Source: a virus. From it: a stretch of 21,777 nucleotides of DNA. The position numbers and the translations under genes were made by a program. Position 1 is the first letter of the stretch. Each line of letters begins with the position of its first letter. The stretch spans positions 1-21,777 of IMG/VR virus record IMGVR_UViG_3300049255_000539, one strand, 5' to 3'. Below are positions 8,852 through 18,750 of this stretch, in pieces. Below the pieces are notes generated by a model. That model saw only the letters and a list, made by a program, of their open reading frames with translations, searched no databases and was not told the DNA's origin.

Positions 8852-9541
8852 CTATGCCGCCACGAGGCGCTGCACCTGGACGACGGCGAAGCGCCCGCCG
8901 GAGCGGCTCGTGAGCCCCTCAGCGGCCAGCTGCGCGGCGATCTGGCGCAGCGACGCCCCTTGCGCCCGCAGCTCGCGCGCCCGCGCCAGGACCCGCTGCT
9001 CGGCCGCGTCCTCGACCAGCCGTACGCCGTCCGCGGCGAGCTGGTACCCGAAGGGCGGCTCGCCGCCCGTGTACTCGCCGCGCTCGGCCTTGTGCTGGAG
9101 CACCGCCGACGTGCGCTCGCTGATCTGGTTGCGCTCCAGCTCCGCGGCGCCGGCCATGACGGTCAGGAAAAACTTCCCCATCGCGCTCGACGTGTCGATC
9201 GCGGAGCCGCCGAGGTCGAGCAAGTGCAGGCCCACCCCGGCGCGATCCCAAACCTCGACGTTCGCCAAACAGTCCGCGCAGTTGCGGAACAGGCGATCGA
9301 GCTTGAAGGCGACCACGCCGGTGATCCGGCGGCGCCTGAGCAGTTCGAGGAGCCGCTGCCCCCCTGGGCGCACCCGCAGCGGCTTCGAGGCGCTCACGCC
9401 GGGGTCCTGGACGAGCTCGACGAGCTCCAGGCCGCGCATCGCGCAGTAGGCCTCGATCCGGGCGCGCTGGGCGTCCAAGCTGATGCCCTCGCGGCTTTGC
9501 TCCTCGCTGCTCACGCGCACGTAACCGGCGACCTTTCGCAT
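8852..9541 (-). CDS. Serine recombinase (resolvase/invertase type)
   Basis: The product is 229 residues from the ATG at 9541. The N-terminal catalytic domain shows 'YVRVSSEEQ' with nucleophile Ser11, the helper region 'FKLDRLFRN' with the conserved Arg residues, and a long E-helix region ending near 'ERNQISERTSAVLQHKAERG'. A short C-terminal segment ('RELRAQGASLRQIAAQLAAEGL') is an HTH-like DNA-binding part. At about 230 residues it is longer than classic resolvases and much shorter than large serine integrases, and it has no Cys zinc ribbon. It could integrate this element, resolve multimers or invert DNA. A GTG at 9568 would add nine residues; the ATG gives the typical family N-terminus. 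Neither has a good ribosome-binding site. A 22-base hairpin sits just upstream. Confidence 0.9.
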   Translation of the reverse strand: MRKVAGYVRVSSEEQSREGISLDAQRARIEAYCAMRGLELVELVQDPGVSASKPLRVRPGGQRLLELLRRRRITGVVAFKLDRLFRNCADCLANVEVWDRAGVGLHLLDLGGSAIDTSSAMGKFFLTVMAGAAELERNQISERTSAVLQHKAERGEYTGGEPPFGYQLAADGVRLVEDAAEQRVLARARELRAQGASLRQIAAQLAAEGLTSRSGGRFAVVQVQRLVAA

Positions 9542-9568
9542 GGCCGGCACGTTGAGTCCGGGCCGCAC

Positions 9569-9904: not shown

Positions 9905-10567
9905 TCATCTGAGACAGCAGACCTCATCGGAGTAGGCGCACGAATCGGCAGGCCCCATTCGGGTGCAGTCGACGCTCGCCGAAAGCACGCACCGGCCGCC
10001 TGCGTTCGCGCAAGCGGGCAGTGTGTCCTCTGGCTCGGAATACCCCAGCTGGCACTTGCCAGCACGGCAAATTGCCCCCGGAGGGCCCTCCGCTGGGCAG
10101 TTGCAAGAGGATCCGGGTGGGGAGCTGGCGATTGCGCGCGCAAACGCCGTCACGTACTGGGACGCGGCGCACCGGTTGACGGCCGCCCCCCAGCATCCGT
10201 CGCAGGCCGAGGCGGGGCACGAACCCACTTCGCCTACCGGTACACAGTCGCTGTCGACCGCACAGGACTGGTCGTACTGAGAGGCCAAGACGACGGCGCA
10301 CGATGCTGAATCGGTCGCGCCGGCGTCGCCGCGTGCCGCGGCATCGCCGCAGGACGCCTCGGCCACACCGGTCGCGTCGACTGTCACGCTCGCGTCGAGC
10401 GCGGAGCCAGAGTCGTCCATGACGCCAGCGTCGGCAGCCGAGCTCCGTGGAGCGCCACCTTCCCGCACGGCCCCTTCGGCGGAGCCCATGTCAATGGCGC
10501 GCCCGCCGCACGCCACACCGAGCGCAGCGGCGAGGAGACCGTACGCAGCAACGGAACGAAGCCGCAT
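9905..10567 (-). CDS. Cys-rich secreted lipoprotein
   Basis: The 220-residue product has a signal peptide with basic 'MRLR', a hydrophobic core and Cys20 in 'LGVAC'; the lipobox is imperfect, with Gly at -3. A linker of Asp, Ala, Gly and Ser (about 25-85) follows, of the sort common in myxobacterial lipoproteins. The remainder has about 16 cysteines, including 'DSDCVPVGEVGSCP', 'CDGCWGAAVN' and a final 'CCLR', implying a disulphide-rich extracytoplasmic domain. No enzymatic motif is seen. I choose the ATG at 10567 because it puts the signal peptide at the N-terminus; an upstream GTG/ATG would add a non-signal extension. It is the last of three lipoprotein genes in a row and lies next to the recombinase. 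The family looks host-like rather than phage-like. Confidence 0.75.
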   Translation of the reverse strand: MRLRSVAAYGLLAAALGVACGGRAIDMGSAEGAVREGGAPRSSAADAGVMDDSGSALDASVTVDATGVAEASCGDAAARGDAGATDSASCAVVLASQYDQSCAVDSDCVPVGEVGSCPASACDGCWGAAVNRCAASQYVTAFARAIASSPPGSSCNCPAEGPPGAICRAGKCQLGYSEPEDTLPACANAGGRCVLSASVDCTRMGPADSCAYSDEVCCLR

Positions 10568-10699
10568 GCCGGGGACACGTACACGCCGCGTGCCGAGCGC
10601 TGGGATGTGACTCGAGGCGCGATACTTCACGCGCGCGCGTGCGCGGGACGCGACCGCTTCTTGTGGTGTCGGCGGTGGGCTTGGCGCGACTGCCTTGCG
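10568..10699. other. Gap between lipoprotein genes with alternating GC palindrome
   Basis: The 132 bases hold a 14-bp palindrome of alternating C/G (CACGCGCGCGCGTG at 10628-10641), which could form Z-DNA. I see no promoter or terminator. Confidence 0.3.
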
Positions 10700-11014
10700 C
10701 TACTCGAAGGCGCTGTCGGCCGACGCATCGATGTCGGCATCTTGCTCGTCGTCGGAGTCCGGTGCGTCGGCGGATGCGTCCTGACTGTCAGTGGATCCAC
10801 TCTCTGCCTTGGGCATGCAGCAGGTCGGAGAAGAGAGAAAGGGCCCGCATGAGATCCCCGAATTCGGCGCGAGACCCGTCGGGCACCAGACCCACGTGCC
10901 TCCGCACCAGCCACCCGCCTTCTCGCAGTCGCTCTTGCCCTGCTCGAGCAGGGGGTTGCGCCGCTCGTCCGGCACGCACGCGCAAAGCAGGGTGAGCACA
11001 AGGGGCCAGCGCAC
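10700..11014 (-). CDS. Small Cys-rich lipoprotein
   Basis: The 104-residue product starts with a short signal peptide; 'LTLLCAC' contains lipobox LCAC with lipidation at Cys13. The mature part has about eight cysteines in 'CEKAGGWCGG', 'WCPTGLAP', 'SCGP' and 'TCCMP', a pattern implying a small disulphide-bonded fold like secreted myxobacterial proteins. The tail from about 72 is strongly acidic (Asp/Ser/Ala-rich). The predicted start is GTG at 11014, with no strong ribosome-binding site. It lies 33 bases after the larger lipoprotein gene. Function is unknown. Confidence 0.7.
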   Translation of the reverse strand: MRWPLVLTLLCACVPDERRNPLLEQGKSDCEKAGGWCGGTWVWCPTGLAPNSGISCGPFLSSPTCCMPKAESGSTDSQDASADAPDSDDEQDADIDASADSAFE

Positions 11015-11047
11015 AATCGGAGCTTACGCGGTCGGACGGCGCTGCGC

Positions 11048-11734
11048 TCACGGTTCGGTCTGGATTGTCGCCTGCACGAACGTGCTCGGAGCGGACTCGG
11101 GCAGCAGCGAGAACACAGTTTCGCCCGACGGCACGGCGGACCCGGCGCAGCTGCCGTCGGGCTGGAGCGAATAGAGCTGGGCCGGTGCGTGGGTGAGGAC
11201 GGTGCCCATCTTCGCGAGGTGGGCTCCGCCAGGGCCACAGGCCGATCCTGGGTCGGTCCACGACGCCCACGTCGGCGTGCTGCAGAAGGAGCCGCCAGCG
11301 AGGGCAACACGCTGTGAGCAGCCTGAGTCCGAGAACGCTGTGTACGGCGTGACATTGCCGCCGAACCCCGTCCAAGTTGGGATGCACCGGACCCAACCAT
11401 CAGCCGTCGGTTGAAATGTGCAATCGAGATCGAGCGTCGCGTCGTGCCAGCCGAGGAACTGCTTCGAACCGTCCGCTCCGGCGTAGTACTTCGCCTTCAG
11501 GCGGGAGCCGCTCTGGTAAGGATCCGCGCTGGCCTCGGATACGGGATCCGTGAGCGCGTCGAGGATCCCGCTGGAACCATCACCCGATGCACTCCCGCTG
11601 GATCCGCTCCCACCTCCACTTCCGCCTTCGCCTGCCGCGTGCCCCGAAGGCCCGCTGGCGGCACTGCAGGCGGCCATGATGGCGTAGATCGCGAGTGAAC
11701 CAGCAAGCATCCGAAGCGCTTCACCTGAACGCAT
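11048..11734 (-). CDS. Predicted outer-surface lipoprotein
   Basis: The 228-residue product has a signal peptide, with lipobox-like 'IMAAC' giving Cys23. A Gly/Ser-rich linker (about 27-55) leads to a globular part beginning 'SGSRLKAKYYAGADGSKQF' (about 75-93). This part includes 'GWHDATLDLDCTF' and 'DGWVRCIP', which resemble a domain I recall from many Polyangia secreted proteins; that is memory, not a search. Several paired cysteines suggest disulphides. The ATG at 11734 is preceded by GGAGGT with 8-base spacing, a strong site that sets the start. It is the first of three lipoprotein genes. It lies 26 bases after the preceding replication-module gene, so it may be transcribed from that operon or carry its own promoter. 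A phage moron or acquired host cargo is plausible. Confidence 0.75.
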   Translation of the reverse strand: MRSGEALRMLAGSLAIYAIMAACSAASGPSGHAAGEGGSGGGSGSSGSASGDGSSGILDALTDPVSEASADPYQSGSRLKAKYYAGADGSKQFLGWHDATLDLDCTFQPTADGWVRCIPTWTGFGGNVTPYTAFSDSGCSQRVALAGGSFCSTPTWASWTDPGSACGPGGAHLAKMGTVLTHAPAQLYSLQPDGSCAGSAVPSGETVFSLLPESAPSTFVQATIQTEP

Positions 11735-11760
11735 CGACGAGTACCTCCGAGGCCGCGAGC

Positions 11761-12399
11761 CTACCTCGGGGACCGCGCGACGGCGACGCTCACGCGAGCC
11801 TCCGCGTACCTCGCCCTCGCGGCGGCGAGCATCGTCGTCGCCTCGCGCCGGATCTCCTCGTAGGCTGCGCGCCCGTCGGGAGCAGTCGCCGCCGCCAGCC
11901 ATCGCACCGTCGTCTCGATGGGCTCGTGCATGCCCCTCGCCGCGCGCGAGCGGTTCCTGGCCCACGCCGTCTGCGTCAGGCAGGCCACGTCCGCAAGCCG
12001 TCCGAGCGTGTGTTCGGTGGGCTCGCCGCCGTAGTAGGCGTCGAGCACTGCTTGGTCGCGCTGGGAGAGCAGGGCGAGCGTCTTGCTCACCAGGCGAAAC
12101 CGCCCCCGCGCGTCGAGGTACGCAACCATCGCGTCCTCGCCGTCGAAGTTCACGGCGCCGTGCTCGCTCCCGCACTCGACGAGCTCCGTCCACGGCGTGC
12201 CCGGGGTGGGGCGCTCCGCCGTACGCCCGGGAGTCGCCCTCGCCAAGCGCGTGCACACCGCGCCGAGGTTGGACCGCTCGCCGGGCGCGCCGGGCATGTA
12301 CCGCCCGAAGTAGGCGCGCAGCTCGGCCTCGTAGCGCAAGGACAGGGGCGCGGGAACTTCGATGCTCGGATGGCTGTGGATGGCACGCTCAGGTCGCAT
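11761..12399 (-). CDS. Putative HTH transcription factor (sigma region 4-like)
   Basis: The 212-residue product has a central segment 'LVSKTLALLSQRDQAVLDAYYGG' (about 105-127) followed by 'LGRLADVACLTQTAWARNRSRAARG' (about 133-157). This resembles the pattern of sigma-70 region 4 or phage late-gene activators: a helix before a helix-turn-helix. I am not sure of the family. The start at ATG 12399 is supported by AAGGAGG with 6-base spacing. The gene begins 11 bases inside the end of the ParB-like gene and closes the replication module, a common place for a late-gene activator. A C-terminal helical tail is Ala/Arg-rich. Confidence 0.6.
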   Translation of the reverse strand: MRPERAIHSHPSIEVPAPLSLRYEAELRAYFGRYMPGAPGERSNLGAVCTRLARATPGRTAERPTPGTPWTELVECGSEHGAVNFDGEDAMVAYLDARGRFRLVSKTLALLSQRDQAVLDAYYGGEPTEHTLGRLADVACLTQTAWARNRSRAARGMHEPIETTVRWLAAATAPDGRAAYEEIRREATTMLAAARARYAEARVSVAVARSPR

Positions 12400-14195: not shown

Positions 14196-14440
14196 GGCTG
14201 CCTCCGCAGGTGCTGACAGGCGAAGTAGACGAGGCTGTCTTCGATCTCCTCGCGGGCCTCGGTGGCGAAGTCGCGCCTGTCATGTGCGACGTCGAGGCGG
14301 CCGTAGATCTCCGCGCCACGCAGGAGGCGCGCCGCGATCCGGGTGAGCACACGCACCTCGTCCTCGCCGAGAACGTCGACGATGGCGCGGAGCTCGTCGC
14401 GCGGGGCGAGCGTCGCCCAGGACTCGGGACAGGCGATCAC
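14192..14440 (-). CDS. Small helical hypothetical protein (possible MazG-like)
   Basis: The 82-residue product has an acidic helical C-terminal half: 'EIYGRLDVAHDRRDF' then 'EAREEIEDSLVYFACQHL' (about 43-78). The ExxE-x-D spacing and preceding Tyr-Gly recall small phage proteins with an all-alpha NTP pyrophosphatase (MazG-like) pattern, which would act on nucleotides. The match is weak and only by eye. It starts with GTG in a GTGA overlap with the nuclease gene and is joined by GTGA to the next gene. Confidence 0.6.
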   Translation of the reverse strand: MIACPESWATLAPRDELRAIVDVLGEDEVRVLTRIAARLLRGAEIYGRLDVAHDRRDFATEAREEIEDSLVYFACQHLRRQP

Positions 14441-15618
14441 GGGCGCACCTGCTTCGCCGAGAAGCGCGGCGTCACGGTCTTGTTCGCACGCGCCTCGAGC
14501 TCGGCCCGGAGCATCGTGAGCCGGGAGCGGGGGAGCTTCTCGCCGATGGACTTGAGCAGCTTCGAGAGCGAGTCCTTGTCGACCGTGGCGAGCTTGGCCA
14601 GGAGCGTCATCCTCGGCAGGCCCGTCGCCTCCTCGAGGAGGTTCAGCGTGGGCTCGAGTGGGTACTCCGTGCTCGTGATGGGCAGAAGCTGATAGCGGAC
14701 GCCCCCGAGCTCCAGCTTCTCCTGCTCCTCGAGATGCGCCCGCAGAACGTTCTCGAGCTCGCCCTTGCGCGCGTAGGCGATCTTCGCGATCCGAGCGACC
14801 TCCTCACGCTCGCGAGCGACCGCCTCCAGGTCGCTCTGGTCGATGGCGATCGTCGTGCGCTTCCCTGCGAGGGCATCGGCGTACGCGCTGCACTGCTTCT
14901 TGTGGTCGCAGTAGACGCAGTTCGGGTTGGGCCGGGCCGGGTACTCCTGCGCGCTCTCGGTCTGCTCGCCGACGGCGATGACGTACCGGCGCGCGGCCTC
15001 GAGTTGCTCGGGCGTGCGCGACGTCCGGAGCCTCAGGTCGTGCCGCAGCATGTCGTACTGGAGCTCGATCTCCCGAGCCCAGGGGAACAGCTGCTGCGCG
15101 GCCATGTGGTAGAGCGAGAGCTGCAGGCTCTCGGCGACCTCGTCGCGCGTGAAGACGACGCGGTTCGTCTTGTAGTCACGCACCCGAATGGTGTGGTCGT
15201 CGATGCGATCGATGCGGTCGATGGAGCCGACGACGCGGAACCGACCGACGGTGATCTCGAAGGGCTGCTCGACCGCGAGCACGTCCTTCGGGTCGACAAC
15301 GCGCTCGCCCCGGCAGAAGGACTTCAGGATCTCCGCACCCTCGCCGAAGAGGCCGAGGCCCGTCAGCCCCTCGTTCGTCCAGGCGACCTGCCAGAGGTCG
15401 AGGGCGTGCTCCGGCGAGAGCGGCTCGACCCGGTGGTCAATCGCGTGCTCGCCGACGAGTTGCTCGAGGGTCCAGTGGACCGCCTTGCCGAACTTGAGCT
15501 CGACGCCCGGTTCGGCTTCGAGATGGTCGATGTAGTGCAGCCGGAACGAGAGCGGGCACTGCTCGTAGCGCTGCAGGCGGGAGAAGCTCAGATGCCTGTT
15601 CGTGAACGTCGTCCTCAT
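14437..15618 (-). CDS. PD-(D/E)XK nuclease with Fe-S cysteines (Cas4/RecB-like)
   Basis: The product is 393 residues from ATG 15618; a GTG six bases upstream (15624) would add two residues. It begins with 'LSFSRLQRYEQCPLSFRLHY', typical of RecB-family nucleases. Numbering from the GTG, the catalytic core shows His50, Asp136 in 'VGSIDRID', Asp150 and Lys152 in 'VRDYKTNR', and Gln168 in 'LQLSLYHM'. Cys23 together with Cys236, Cys239 and Cys245 ('CVYCDHKKQC') has the arrangement of the iron-sulphur cluster seen in Cas4 and AddB nucleases. It is likely a DNA exonuclease in recombination or end processing. No CRISPR genes lie nearby. The TGA stop overlaps the next GTG start. Confidence 0.92.
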   Translation of the reverse strand: MRTTFTNRHLSFSRLQRYEQCPLSFRLHYIDHLEAEPGVELKFGKAVHWTLEQLVGEHAIDHRVEPLSPEHALDLWQVAWTNEGLTGLGLFGEGAEILKSFCRGERVVDPKDVLAVEQPFEITVGRFRVVGSIDRIDRIDDHTIRVRDYKTNRVVFTRDEVAESLQLSLYHMAAQQLFPWAREIELQYDMLRHDLRLRTSRTPEQLEAARRYVIAVGEQTESAQEYPARPNPNCVYCDHKKQCSAYADALAGKRTTIAIDQSDLEAVAREREEVARIAKIAYARKGELENVLRAHLEEQEKLELGGVRYQLLPITSTEYPLEPTLNLLEEATGLPRMTLLAKLATVDKDSLSKLLKSIGEKLPRSRLTMLRAELEARANKTVTPRFSAKQVRP

Positions 15619-15778
15619 GCCCACTGTTAGGCAGCGCGCTCACACGACTTCGGCGGGAAAGTGATTGGCGTGTCGCTTTCCTCGCTGGACCGTCGTGGAT
15701 GGCAGAGGTGGTCACGGACCACCGAGAATTCGGCTCGATCGTGAACCGAGGTCGAAAAACATCGAGAAAAGGGGGGGG
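15619..15778. promoter_or_regulatory. Intergenic region with clustered inverted repeats
   Basis: This gap lies between the primase-helicase palindrome and the nuclease operon. It has GGAAAGTGA paired with TCGCTTTCC (15656-15681; 8 of 9 pairs) and GGTGGTC-ACG-GACCACC (15707-15723; 7 of 7). A run of eight G (15771-15778) abuts the large palindrome. It is likely a promoter or replication control region; I could not assign -35/-10 boxes with confidence. Confidence 0.5.
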
Positions 15779-15832
15779 TGTTCACGGGATCCCTTAACTA
15801 AGAGATCTCTCTGTTAAGGGATCCCGTGAACA
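15779..15832. repeat. 54-bp near-perfect palindrome at end of primase-helicase gene
   Basis: Outer arms of 20 bases (TGTTCACGGGATCCCTTAAC and its exact reverse complement) surround a concentric inner palindrome AGAGATCTCT; only the two pairs at 15799/15812 and 15800/15811 mismatch. It contains the TAA stop and the last codons of the leftward primase-helicase gene. It could be a replication origin, operator or terminator. The leftward side is followed by a C8 run then TTTT, so an intrinsic terminator is not clear-cut. Confidence 0.85.
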
Positions 15833-18750
15833 GCTGGGCCTGCTCCAGCTACGAGCGAGCGAAGCTTGGTCGCGATCTCGGTTGGCACGGGACGACGCCC
15901 GGAGGCGTAGTTCGTGATCGCGCCCGCACTGCACCCGAGGGCACGCGCAGTGGACCGGATGCCGCCGAGGATCTGCACGTGCTTCGTCAACTCGGCGAGG
16001 TCCATCGCCGTGTCTTCTCGCGTCGGCCCTGGCTTCATCGCCCGGATCTCCACCCCGCCCGCCGTCCAGCCGAACCCGCTCGGGAGCACCGTCCCCACGT
16101 GGAGCGCCCGCCCCGGGCGGGTCCGGTGGACCGCTCGGATGCGCCCGTGCGCCTGCTCGAGCTCCGCGCGGCACATGGCCTCGAGCCTCTGCTCCCACGT
16201 CGGCCCGAGGCCGAGGAAGGCCGCGTCGTTTCTCGCGTCACCAACGTTGGGCCACGGATCGCCGAGCGTCGCGAGCGCGTCCACGTCGGCCATCGTGTTC
16301 AGGCCGCGGACGGCGCCGTAGTGGCCGAAAAGGATCTCCCCGCTCCATGCACGCAGGACGGGCCCCAGCTTCTCGCGCGCCTGCTGCACCTCCGCCTTCG
16401 TCAGTTCCTCGGGTGGCTCGTCATCGAGGCGCCACGCGGCTTCCAGGTGCACGCGCAGGAGCCGCATCGTGATCAGCCCCAGGCGACGGCACGAGCCATC
16501 CTCGCCGGCCCAGTCGATCGCCGCGCGCAGGGCGGGTACCACGGCGTCCTGCGACAGCCTGCCGCCGACGAACCACCCCTTGCGCGTCGCCGTCCGGCAC
16601 CGCAGCAGGGTCCTCGCGATGGGAGCACCGTCCGCCGCGGCGAACCTGTGGAAGCGCGGTGCGTAGCCGACGATCTTCTCGAAGACCGGCAGGTGCAGCT
16701 CCGCGTTCGCATCGGTCACGACGACGGAGCCCTGGCGCTTGAGCGCGCGCGTGAGGTCGGTGCGCGGCATCGTCAGGACGAGCGCGTGCGCCTCGCCCCG
16801 CTTCTCTACGCGGACAGCGACGCGAACCGGGGTGGTTACCGCCCGATGCAACGTCCCGAGCACACGCGAGGCATTCCCGAGCCGCTTCGCGTAGTTCTCG
16901 GAGCCCTTGGCAACGTAGATGTCCGCGCGCTGGATCGGCGGCGCCCGCGACCGGCGCTCCTCGGGGATGGCGCCCTTGGCGCCGTCGACGAGCGCCGCGA
17001 TGTCGGCGCCAGGGAGGACCTCGCGCAGGGCGATGACGGGCTCGGTTGGTGCGTCCGCGTCGGCCAGGTCCATCCAGCGGTCGAACGCCTCGACGATGGG
17101 CCGCATGGCGAGGGCGTACTTCCCCTCGAAGGAGCCGAGACGGTCCCGGGCATCGGCGAAATCGTGACGGCCGAAGGTGACGGTCTCCAGCGCGGCGGGC
17201 GGCTCGTCGATGACGAGCAGGCCCGAAGCCCCGGCGGCCGAGTCGAGCTCGCCCAGGAGGGCGTGTGGGCCCACTGTGACGCGCGCATCGTCCGGGCCCT
17301 CGACGCCGTCCTTCGCCTTGCACACGTCGCGGTGCTCGCAGTCCCTGCAGAGGACCCACTGCATGGGCTGGCCACCTTCGACCAGGGGCGCTGCGACGGC
17401 GGCGAGCCGACACTCGAGCGTCCCGTCCTCGCGGACGACCGACAGCGGCCCGAAGATGCGGCGGACGGCCGTCCCACGCGCGCGCAGGTCGCTGGCGACC
17501 TGGATCGCGAGCGTGTTCTTGTCGAGGCTGATCGACGTCTTGGACTGCGGTGGCGCGCGAAGGCCCTTCGCATCGGGGCTCGCGTACGGCTTTGCCGCGC
17601 GCTCGGTGGCGACGGTCATCGCGGCGTTCGTCTTTCCAAGGCCGCACTCGGCCGAGATCACCGTCAAGCCGTCAGGGGCGCCGCGGATGGCCGCCGTCAT
17701 CGCGGCGAGCGACTCCGCGAGGGGAACCACAGGGACGGGGCCCGCGGCGCCCACCTGGGCGCGCAGGCGCGCCTCGGCGCGCGTGGGAGCCGCCTGGTCG
17801 ATGGCTTCCGCGACGGCCTGCCACTGCCGGCGCAGGCTCGGGTAGCCGGTGATCTCGAGCCGGTCGGCGTAGCGGCGGGCCGTGTCGCGCGCGCCGCGCG
17901 CGTGGCTGGCGGGCTTCTCGGAGCCCGCGGCGGTCGCGATCCAGTCAACCATGGCGGGCAGGCGCTCCGGGGGGAGGCCGCGTCCAAGCAGCGCGCCGCC
18001 GAGGGCGAGGTACATCTCGTGCCAGCGGTCGGTGACGCTCTCACGTACGGCCTTCGCGATGGCGACGGCGCGGTCCTGCCATTGCGTCGGCAACTCAGGC
18101 GCCCACGCGAGCTCGGCATGCGTGCGCAGGGCGCGCGGGGCGCGGTCGGGCTCCTGGCTCGGGGGCGGCTCCGCGATCGGCTCGAGCTCGATGGCGCGCA
18201 TGCGCGAGAGATCCACTACCGGACTGCGGTAGGCTCCCGTCCGCCGCCGAACGACGTGTGCGAGGCGGAAGTGACGCGTCCAATCCCGACACGTCCAGTC
18301 GACCTCGAGCCCTGCGCTCTCGAGCGAGAGGAGCCAGCGGCGGATGTAGGGCTCGGCCTTCGTGACGGGGATTGGGTTCGCGAGGGGCTGCACGATGTGG
18401 CGCCCGTGGAGCGTGTGGTAGATGCCGCACCTCGCGAGCTCCGGCGTGGTGTCCCACTCGAAGGCGGCCTGCGTGCGCAGTGCGTCGTTCCACTCGGCGT
18501 GGCCCGGGTTGTCGATGTCGCAGACGAAGGTCGTCGTGAGGACGGGCCGGTCGAAGTAGGGCAGGCCTGGCTTGTTGATCCGAGGCTGACGAGTGGCACC
18601 CTCGACGATGTACGTGACGAAGTGGGCGTCCGTCTTGTACACGCGCTCGATGGCCTCGCGCATGTCCACGACCTCGTAGGCATCGACCACTGCCCGTCCC
18701 GAACCGTCGAACCCGCGGTTGTGGATGTCGGGAGCGACGGCGATCTTCAC
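15814..18750 (-). CDS. Multidomain primase-helicase with C-terminal HTH
   Basis: The 978-residue product appears to combine four parts. Residues about 40-170 look like an archaeo-eukaryotic primase: Asp78-x-Asp80 in 'FVCDIDN', His118 in 'LHGRHIVQPL', and 'VDWTCRDWTRHFRLAHVVR' (150-168) with Asp151/Asp156. About 220-320 is a helical linker like primase C-terminal domains. About 360-880 is an SF2/DinG-like helicase: Walker A 'AECGLGKT' (367-374), Cys447, Cys468, Cys471 and Cys477 like an Fe-S cluster, Asp515-Glu516 ('VIDEPP'), and motif VI 'QAHGRIRAVHR' (866-876). About 920-968 is a Cro/XRE-like HTH ('TARALGCSAGAITNYASGRR'). It would prime and unwind DNA at an origin. The GTG start overlaps the upstream stop as GTGA. 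TAA, rather than TGA, ends it inside the 54-bp palindrome. Confidence 0.85.
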   Translation of the reverse strand: MKIAVAPDIHNRGFDGSGRAVVDAYEVVDMREAIERVYKTDAHFVTYIVEGATRQPRINKPGLPYFDRPVLTTTFVCDIDNPGHAEWNDALRTQAAFEWDTTPELARCGIYHTLHGRHIVQPLANPIPVTKAEPYIRRWLLSLESAGLEVDWTCRDWTRHFRLAHVVRRRTGAYRSPVVDLSRMRAIELEPIAEPPPSQEPDRAPRALRTHAELAWAPELPTQWQDRAVAIAKAVRESVTDRWHEMYLALGGALLGRGLPPERLPAMVDWIATAAGSEKPASHARGARDTARRYADRLEITGYPSLRRQWQAVAEAIDQAAPTRAEARLRAQVGAAGPVPVVPLAESLAAMTAAIRGAPDGLTVISAECGLGKTNAAMTVATERAAKPYASPDAKGLRAPPQSKTSISLDKNTLAIQVASDLRARGTAVRRIFGPLSVVREDGTLECRLAAVAAPLVEGGQPMQWVLCRDCEHRDVCKAKDGVEGPDDARVTVGPHALLGELDSAAGASGLLVIDEPPAALETVTFGRHDFADARDRLGSFEGKYALAMRPIVEAFDRWMDLADADAPTEPVIALREVLPGADIAALVDGAKGAIPEERRSRAPPIQRADIYVAKGSENYAKRLGNASRVLGTLHRAVTTPVRVAVRVEKRGEAHALVLTMPRTDLTRALKRQGSVVVTDANAELHLPVFEKIVGYAPRFHRFAAADGAPIARTLLRCRTATRKGWFVGGRLSQDAVVPALRAAIDWAGEDGSCRRLGLITMRLLRVHLEAAWRLDDEPPEELTKAEVQQAREKLGPVLRAWSGEILFGHYGAVRGLNTMADVDALATLGDPWPNVGDARNDAAFLGLGPTWEQRLEAMCRAELEQAHGRIRAVHRTRPGRALHVGTVLPSGFGWTAGGVEIRAMKPGPTREDTAMDLAELTKHVQILGGIRSTARALGCSAGAITNYASGRRPVPTEIATKLRSLVAGAGPAVHGIP

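Follow-up and report, generated by a model that had tools for sequence, protein, structure and literature searches.

In the literature compared here, what is known of stem-loop origins that work with primase-helicase proteins rests on the Sulfolobus plasmid pRN1 and on a suggestion made for one phage group (PMC4234260). In pRN1, a stem-loop of roughly 100 nt lies 54 bp past a gene encoding an archaeo-eukaryotic primase (AEP) joined to an SF3 helicase and a winged helix; this stem-loop is required for replication, still works when it is moved, and tolerates changes to its letters if pairing is kept (PMC4234260). It forms an island of low conservation between conserved flanks, the structure being conserved and the sequence not, and the same kind of stem-loop origin has been proposed for the Bordetella phages BIP-1 and BPP-1 (PMC4234260). 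For some AEP proteins, a C-terminal domain with no more than remote similarity to SF2 helicases has also been reported (PMC5862659). Of these published cases, pRN1 is closer to the system described here than phage N15, the precedent named in the preliminary description of this locus.

The DNA analyzed here, referred to as the window, is an entire IMG/VR record of 21,777 bases with 70% GC; the record is itself a fragment. Its phage genes include an integrase, a PD-(D/E)XK exonuclease, a helicase, and an ssDNA-binding-like protein, with the serine-recombinase integrase gene at positions 8852-9568. Adjoining the integrase, at 9905-12256, are ORFs that by eye resemble myxobacterial secreted cysteine-rich or lipoprotein-type proteins and may be cargo. 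We infer a host of Myxococcota type because the relatives that carry organism names are Deltaproteobacteria, Myxococcales, and Polyangiaceae MAGs.

The palindrome and the gene that it ends

Direct reading of positions 15779-15832 gives TGTTCACGGGATCCCTTAACTAAGAGATCTCTCTGTTAAGGGATCCCGTGAACA, which matches its reverse complement at 50 of 54 positions (25 of 27 pairs, counted base by base), with perfect outer arms of 20 bp and a 10-bp inner palindrome, AGAGATCTCT. This confirms the near-perfect palindrome, its arm, and its inner palindrome as they were described from the sequence at the outset. The palindrome contains the longest perfect stem of the window (20 bp, with a runner-up of 12 bp), and the maximum arm in 20 first-order Markov sequences of the window's length and composition was 9-12 bp. 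Folded as ssDNA it reaches -24.5 kcal/mol (z -11.6) on either strand, and in RNA context its folding has a z of -7.4. The 20-mer arm has no second copy in the window, and an exact search of other viral and genome contigs found none; Rfam at gathering score gave no matches in the window or in four related loci (L003, L009, L014, and L015; see below). The heptamer CGTGAAC occurs in both arms and in two more copies nearby in the window, as well as close to the hairpin in each of L003, L013, and L014, and as a candidate helix-turn-helix (HTH) half-site it shows a modest enrichment that is limited to these four loci. The stop codon of the primase-helicase gene had been singled out as a TAA among neighboring TGA stops, and this contrast holds: among 18 ORFs checked, some of which may be non-genes, 15 end in TGA, two in TAG, and the primase-helicase gene alone in TAA (Table 1).

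Table 1. Features at and around the palindrome, in window coordinates
Feature	Position	Strand	Basis
Next gene, PD-(D/E)XK exonuclease of phrog_69 type; in relatives not always next	14437..15624	-	Profile matches
Non-coding stretch from palindrome to next gene, with minus-strand C-run and T-runs	15625..15778	.	Sequence reading
Extra CGTGAAC, heptamer of the outer arms; possible half-site, a lead only	15740..15746	+	Heptamer search
Near-perfect palindrome, 54 bp; proposed origin hairpin or cruciform	15779..15832	.	Pairing and folding; same site in relatives
AT-rich core of the palindrome, 24 nt, 29% GC (window 70% GC)	15794..15817	.	Composition
TAA stop of the primase-helicase gene, within one palindrome arm	15814..15816	-	ORF reading
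Primase-helicase-HTH gene, 978 aa; proposed initiator	15814..18750	-	ORF and homologues
C-terminal Cro/YdaS-like helix-turn-helix, residues 922-968	15847..15987	-	Profile matches
SF2 helicase region, DinG/XPD-like, residues about 350-905; Walker A GLGKT, DEPP, QAHGRxR	16036..17703	-	Model and alignment
Four cysteines, C447, C468, C471, and C477, invariant in nine homologues; possible Fe-S cluster	17320..17412	-	Alignment
Archaeo-eukaryotic primase (PrimPol) domain, residues 1-195	18166..18750	-	Structure model, DxD conservation

The first 195 residues of the encoded protein take an AEP fold in an AF2 model (pLDDT 88.7), for which the best match is the cyanophage S-2L PrimPol 6zp9 (Foldseek E 2e-4; VIA Z 10.1, 143 aligned, 3.2 A), and the two aspartates of the DxD motif, D78 and D80, are invariant in 18 sequences. 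For the helicase region, sequence profiles yielded weak DEAD matches only, and the top Foldseek matches of its model (pLDDT 78.5) were DinG (E 1.5e-8) and XPD (E 3.7e-8). The four cysteines within this DinG/XPD-like region, fused as it is to a primase, suggest a possible iron-sulfur primase-helicase. At the C terminus, the Cro-like HTH noted in the preliminary description was found again as a Cro/YdaS-like domain, present in seven of nine members with a profile score below Pfam's gathering score. When the protein's sequence profile was compared with PDB chains, weak Cro matches alone were returned, the primase fold coming from the model instead, and a protein search of phage and plasmid collections gave no match. 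Among more distant homologues the N-terminal domain is common, and most carry a DUF5906 region instead of the SF2 helicase; DUF5906 is restricted to these more distant homologues and is SF3-like by weak co-matches to parvovirus and papillomavirus helicases. A recognition helix of the form G-[AT]-[IV]-x-N-[YF] was seen in the window, L013, and L014 when the HTH was compared by eye with the arm sequence, and a link between helix and arms was dropped because L003 does not fit.

Recurrence of the hairpin in relatives

Homologues were gathered from viral contigs and genomes starting from the window's own protein, and 14 family members were inspected (the window, L003, L006, L007, L008, L009, L010, L011, L013, L014, L015, L020, L038, and L043); most of the relatives are contigs from metagenomes, decayed prophages occur among them, and L007, L008, and L011 are close kin. 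The check proposed in the preliminary description, whether relatives have a palindrome conserved at this site, gave a positive result: in 13 of the 14 members the start of a 50-78-nt inverted repeat falls in the interval from -98 to +161 relative to the primase stop. The remaining member, L006, keeps the AT-rich core alone, on a contig that ends 187 bp past the stop. The strongest stem anywhere in the locus fell within -150 to +165 of the stop at 11 of the 14 loci, versus 0.4 expected under uniform placement, and the probability computed for this count treats as independent all loci, including L007, L008, and L011, which are not. For L014 and L043, the stem that scores highest near the stop is not the homologous hairpin but a neighbor of it, either another palindrome or a shifted pairing. 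No comparable hairpin was seen near the stop in homologues farther removed, the majority of which have an SF3-type helicase, and it was likewise absent from L021 and L039, which are divergent but have HTH matches.

Groups differ in the letters of their arms: GTTCACG..CGTGAAC is found in the window and L013, and with one-side changes in L014, while L015 and L043 share CGAAACCCCT..AGGGGTTTCG, of which L009 has a close variant, and the others differ again. A MAFFT alignment of all 13 hairpins aligned poorly, and pair counting was therefore limited to the close trio L007, L008, and L011, in which both sides of the mid-stem have changed at 6 of 23 pairs between flanking stems that are almost identical. 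In this trio 95.7% of cells are paired, versus 33-45% in slid controls, and its double pair changes were reached by none of 500 shuffles. The central 24 nt have 17-42% GC in loci that are otherwise GC-rich (62-73% where measured), and a AGAGATCTCTTA-like core is present in the window, L006, L007, L008, and L011, and partly in L009 and L014. What follows the hairpin varies, from the exonuclease gene (the window and L003) or a small Cys-rich gene and then the exonuclease (L008 and L014) to a methylase or ParB-N/methylase gene (L013, L015, and L043) or an opposed gene (L010). The hairpin is tied to the primase gene and not to the next gene. The comparison shows pairing, AT-rich core, and position as the constrained parts and the arm letters as free.

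Individual loci carry further features. The primase gene has frameshifts or stops in some homologues (L008, L011, and L015), and at L008:7634-7740 the primase frame stops before the hairpin, which is kept along with GGTGGCAATCTGA, the segment in which L007 and L011 have their stop codon. One contig of 82,586 bp (IMGVR_UViG_3300035523_000117) holds two different primase-hairpin modules, L013 and L015, with hairpins near 70.9 and 19.3 kb, respectively, the L015 gene being frameshifted. In L038 (reverse complement 2544-2850) the hairpin and its surroundings stand in a tandem duplicate of about 168 bp, each copy of which is followed by another hairpin, CTTATCTG..CAGATAAG. At L043:8844-8943 one arm sequence occurs three times in alternating orientation, giving two alternative stems, and the hairpin here is part of the coding region. 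L014:9116-9166 is an additional GC-rich near-perfect palindrome with 22-bp arms and a 1-nt loop, located past the primase stop and ahead of the homologous hairpin. About 4 kb past the primase hairpin, a second sequence-conserved hairpin, CGAATAGCCGCTTCC..AAAGCGGCYATTCG, is present at L007:13297-13330, L008:12057, L009:9085-9120, and L011:6406-6439, and it was not found in the window.

A candidate replication origin and its alternatives

We think it somewhat probable that the palindrome is a cis-acting replication origin, or the core of one, whose initiator is the protein encoded by the gene that it ends. This reading is drawn from a structure that persists at one gene's end while its letters are free, and from symmetric arms and an easily melted core beside a primase-helicase-HTH protein; primase, helicase, and HTH domains are what an initiator needs. 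The C-terminal Cro-like HTH would bind the symmetric arms, and the AT-rich core within its GC-rich arms, judging from composition and symmetry, could then extrude or melt as a cruciform or ssDNA hairpin. Loading of the DinG/XPD-like helicase domain would widen the bubble, and the N-terminal AEP domain would lay down the first primers before host or phage enzymes take over. On this reading the origin would be that of a temperate phage of Myxococcota-type hosts. The earlier suggestion that the palindrome is an origin or operator served by the primase-helicase-HTH protein is supported in its core idea by the HTH end and the conserved palindrome in relatives, HTH binding and origin activity being predicted. 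GC skew did not switch consistently at the hairpin: in the 82-kb contig the L015 copy has a local minimum and the second copy (L013) has none, and neither the window nor a 59-kb contig had a clear switch there. No iteron array was noticed in the hairpin flanks.

The main rival of the origin reading, and in our judgment an unlikely one, is that the hairpin acts on the primase transcript, as a transcription terminator or as a 3' mRNA-stabilizing structure; it may resemble the terminators without a T-tract that have been proposed for high-GC bacteria. Its position at or just past the stop in nearly all relatives, its high RNA stability (z -7.4 and -8.5), and its placement between convergent genes in L010 are all consistent with such a role, and T-runs some way past the hairpin in the window and L003 make it possible in those two. 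However, the 10 nt past the stem contain 0-5 T (mean about 1.8 over 12 loci), with most loci having no tract, and the palindrome is absent from the terminator-scan list. Arm mismatches comprise 11 G.T on the gene strand and 12 A.C, so G.T is not in excess and nothing favors pairing in a transcript over pairing in DNA; moreover, a terminator needs neither the recurring AT-rich core with its AGATCTCTTA-like motif nor symmetric arms of at least 20 bp. Rather less likely again is an operator for the protein's own HTH, acting in autoregulation or in control of the next gene and not as an origin. Symmetric arms would suit a dimeric HTH, and so would the CGTGAAC copies, which in the window lie in both arms and at two sites nearby and which recur close to the hairpins of L003, L013, and L014. 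Against this, the palindrome is found at the 3' end of the gene that encodes the HTH, what comes next differs in kind and direction among relatives, and hairpins of 50-78 nt with divergent arms exceed what an operator needs. Because there is no consistent T-tract, no mRNA-strand wobble bias, and no fixed next gene, a terminator or next-gene operator fits less well than an origin, and HTH binding of the operator type may occur and is compatible with an origin role.

The serine-recombinase integrase of the window, the repeated arm of L043, and the duplicated hairpin of L038 could instead point to a site-specific recombination site or the remnant of a mobile palindromic element, but this seems improbable for a structure that keeps one fixed gene position while its letters change, across which gene order runs on, and whose 20-mer arm was seen nowhere else in the window or in the searched viral and genome contigs. 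A protelomerase target, that is, a telomere resolution site, had been raised on the basis of shape and is not supported by the present comparison. Length, shape, and the symmetric center of the window's palindrome (AGAGATCTCT) would suit it, yet a PF16684 telomere resolvase was found in none of ten related records or genomes (the window, a fragment, lay outside this search), and the loop centers of L007, L008, L009, L011, and L015 are asymmetric; we consider this explanation very improbable.

Comparison with known systems

Several described systems share single elements with the window family. RSF1010, with ssiA/ssiB and RepB', likewise has a primase of AEP kind that acts at hairpins (PMC4234260), the role proposed here, and RepB' (3h20) is among the structural matches of the window primase domain, with a large rmsd; RSF1010, however, has separate RepA, RepB', and RepC proteins, iterons, and two short hairpins (PMC4234260). 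The alpha protein of phage P4 is a multidomain primase-helicase with an origin-binding domain (PMC4234260), as is predicted here, but it combines a Toprim primase with repeats as the recognized element in place of an AEP and a hairpin (PMC4234260). By model comparison, the domains of the window protein resemble those of DinG/XPD helicases (PMC11981726) and of mobile-element AEP families (PMC5862659). Our data point to the fusion of a primase with a DinG/XPD-like helicase, and a text search of PMC11981726 and PMC5862659, a limited literature comparison, found no mention of such a protein.

With pRN1, the window family has in common an AEP primase, a helicase, and a putative C-terminal DNA-binding domain in one protein, a large stem-loop just 3' of the gene (in 13 of 14 members) conserved in structure and divergent in sequence, and, in the alignment of L007, L008, and L011, a diverging stem between conserved flanks. 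The stem-loop region published for BPP-1, folded for comparison, formed a 9-bp outer stem only and was much weaker than the window palindrome. The window family would be a second one, from bacteria; its 13 natural variants separate the constrained parts of such a hairpin from the free ones and render the mechanism testable. More tentatively, and with less confidence than for the origin itself, we suggest a new class of self-contained phage replicon, in which an AEP primase, a DinG/XPD-like iron-sulfur helicase, and a Cro-type HTH in one polypeptide would initiate at a structure-conserved, sequence-free hairpin ending their own gene, and which may have evolved independently of the pRN1-type system or by swapping helicase and DNA-binding domain with it. 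Compared with that of pRN1, the hairpin is shorter (50-78 nt versus about 100), has longer near-perfect arms and an AT-rich core, and often overlaps the stop codon, its origin function being a predicted one. The helicase of the window family is SF2 (DinG/XPD-like) where that of pRN1 is SF3, and its HTH is Cro/YdaS-like where pRN1 has a winged helix; because of this difference in helicase class and in the type of DNA-binding domain, we do not class the window family as a member of the pRN1 type but regard it as a variant distinct from pRN1.
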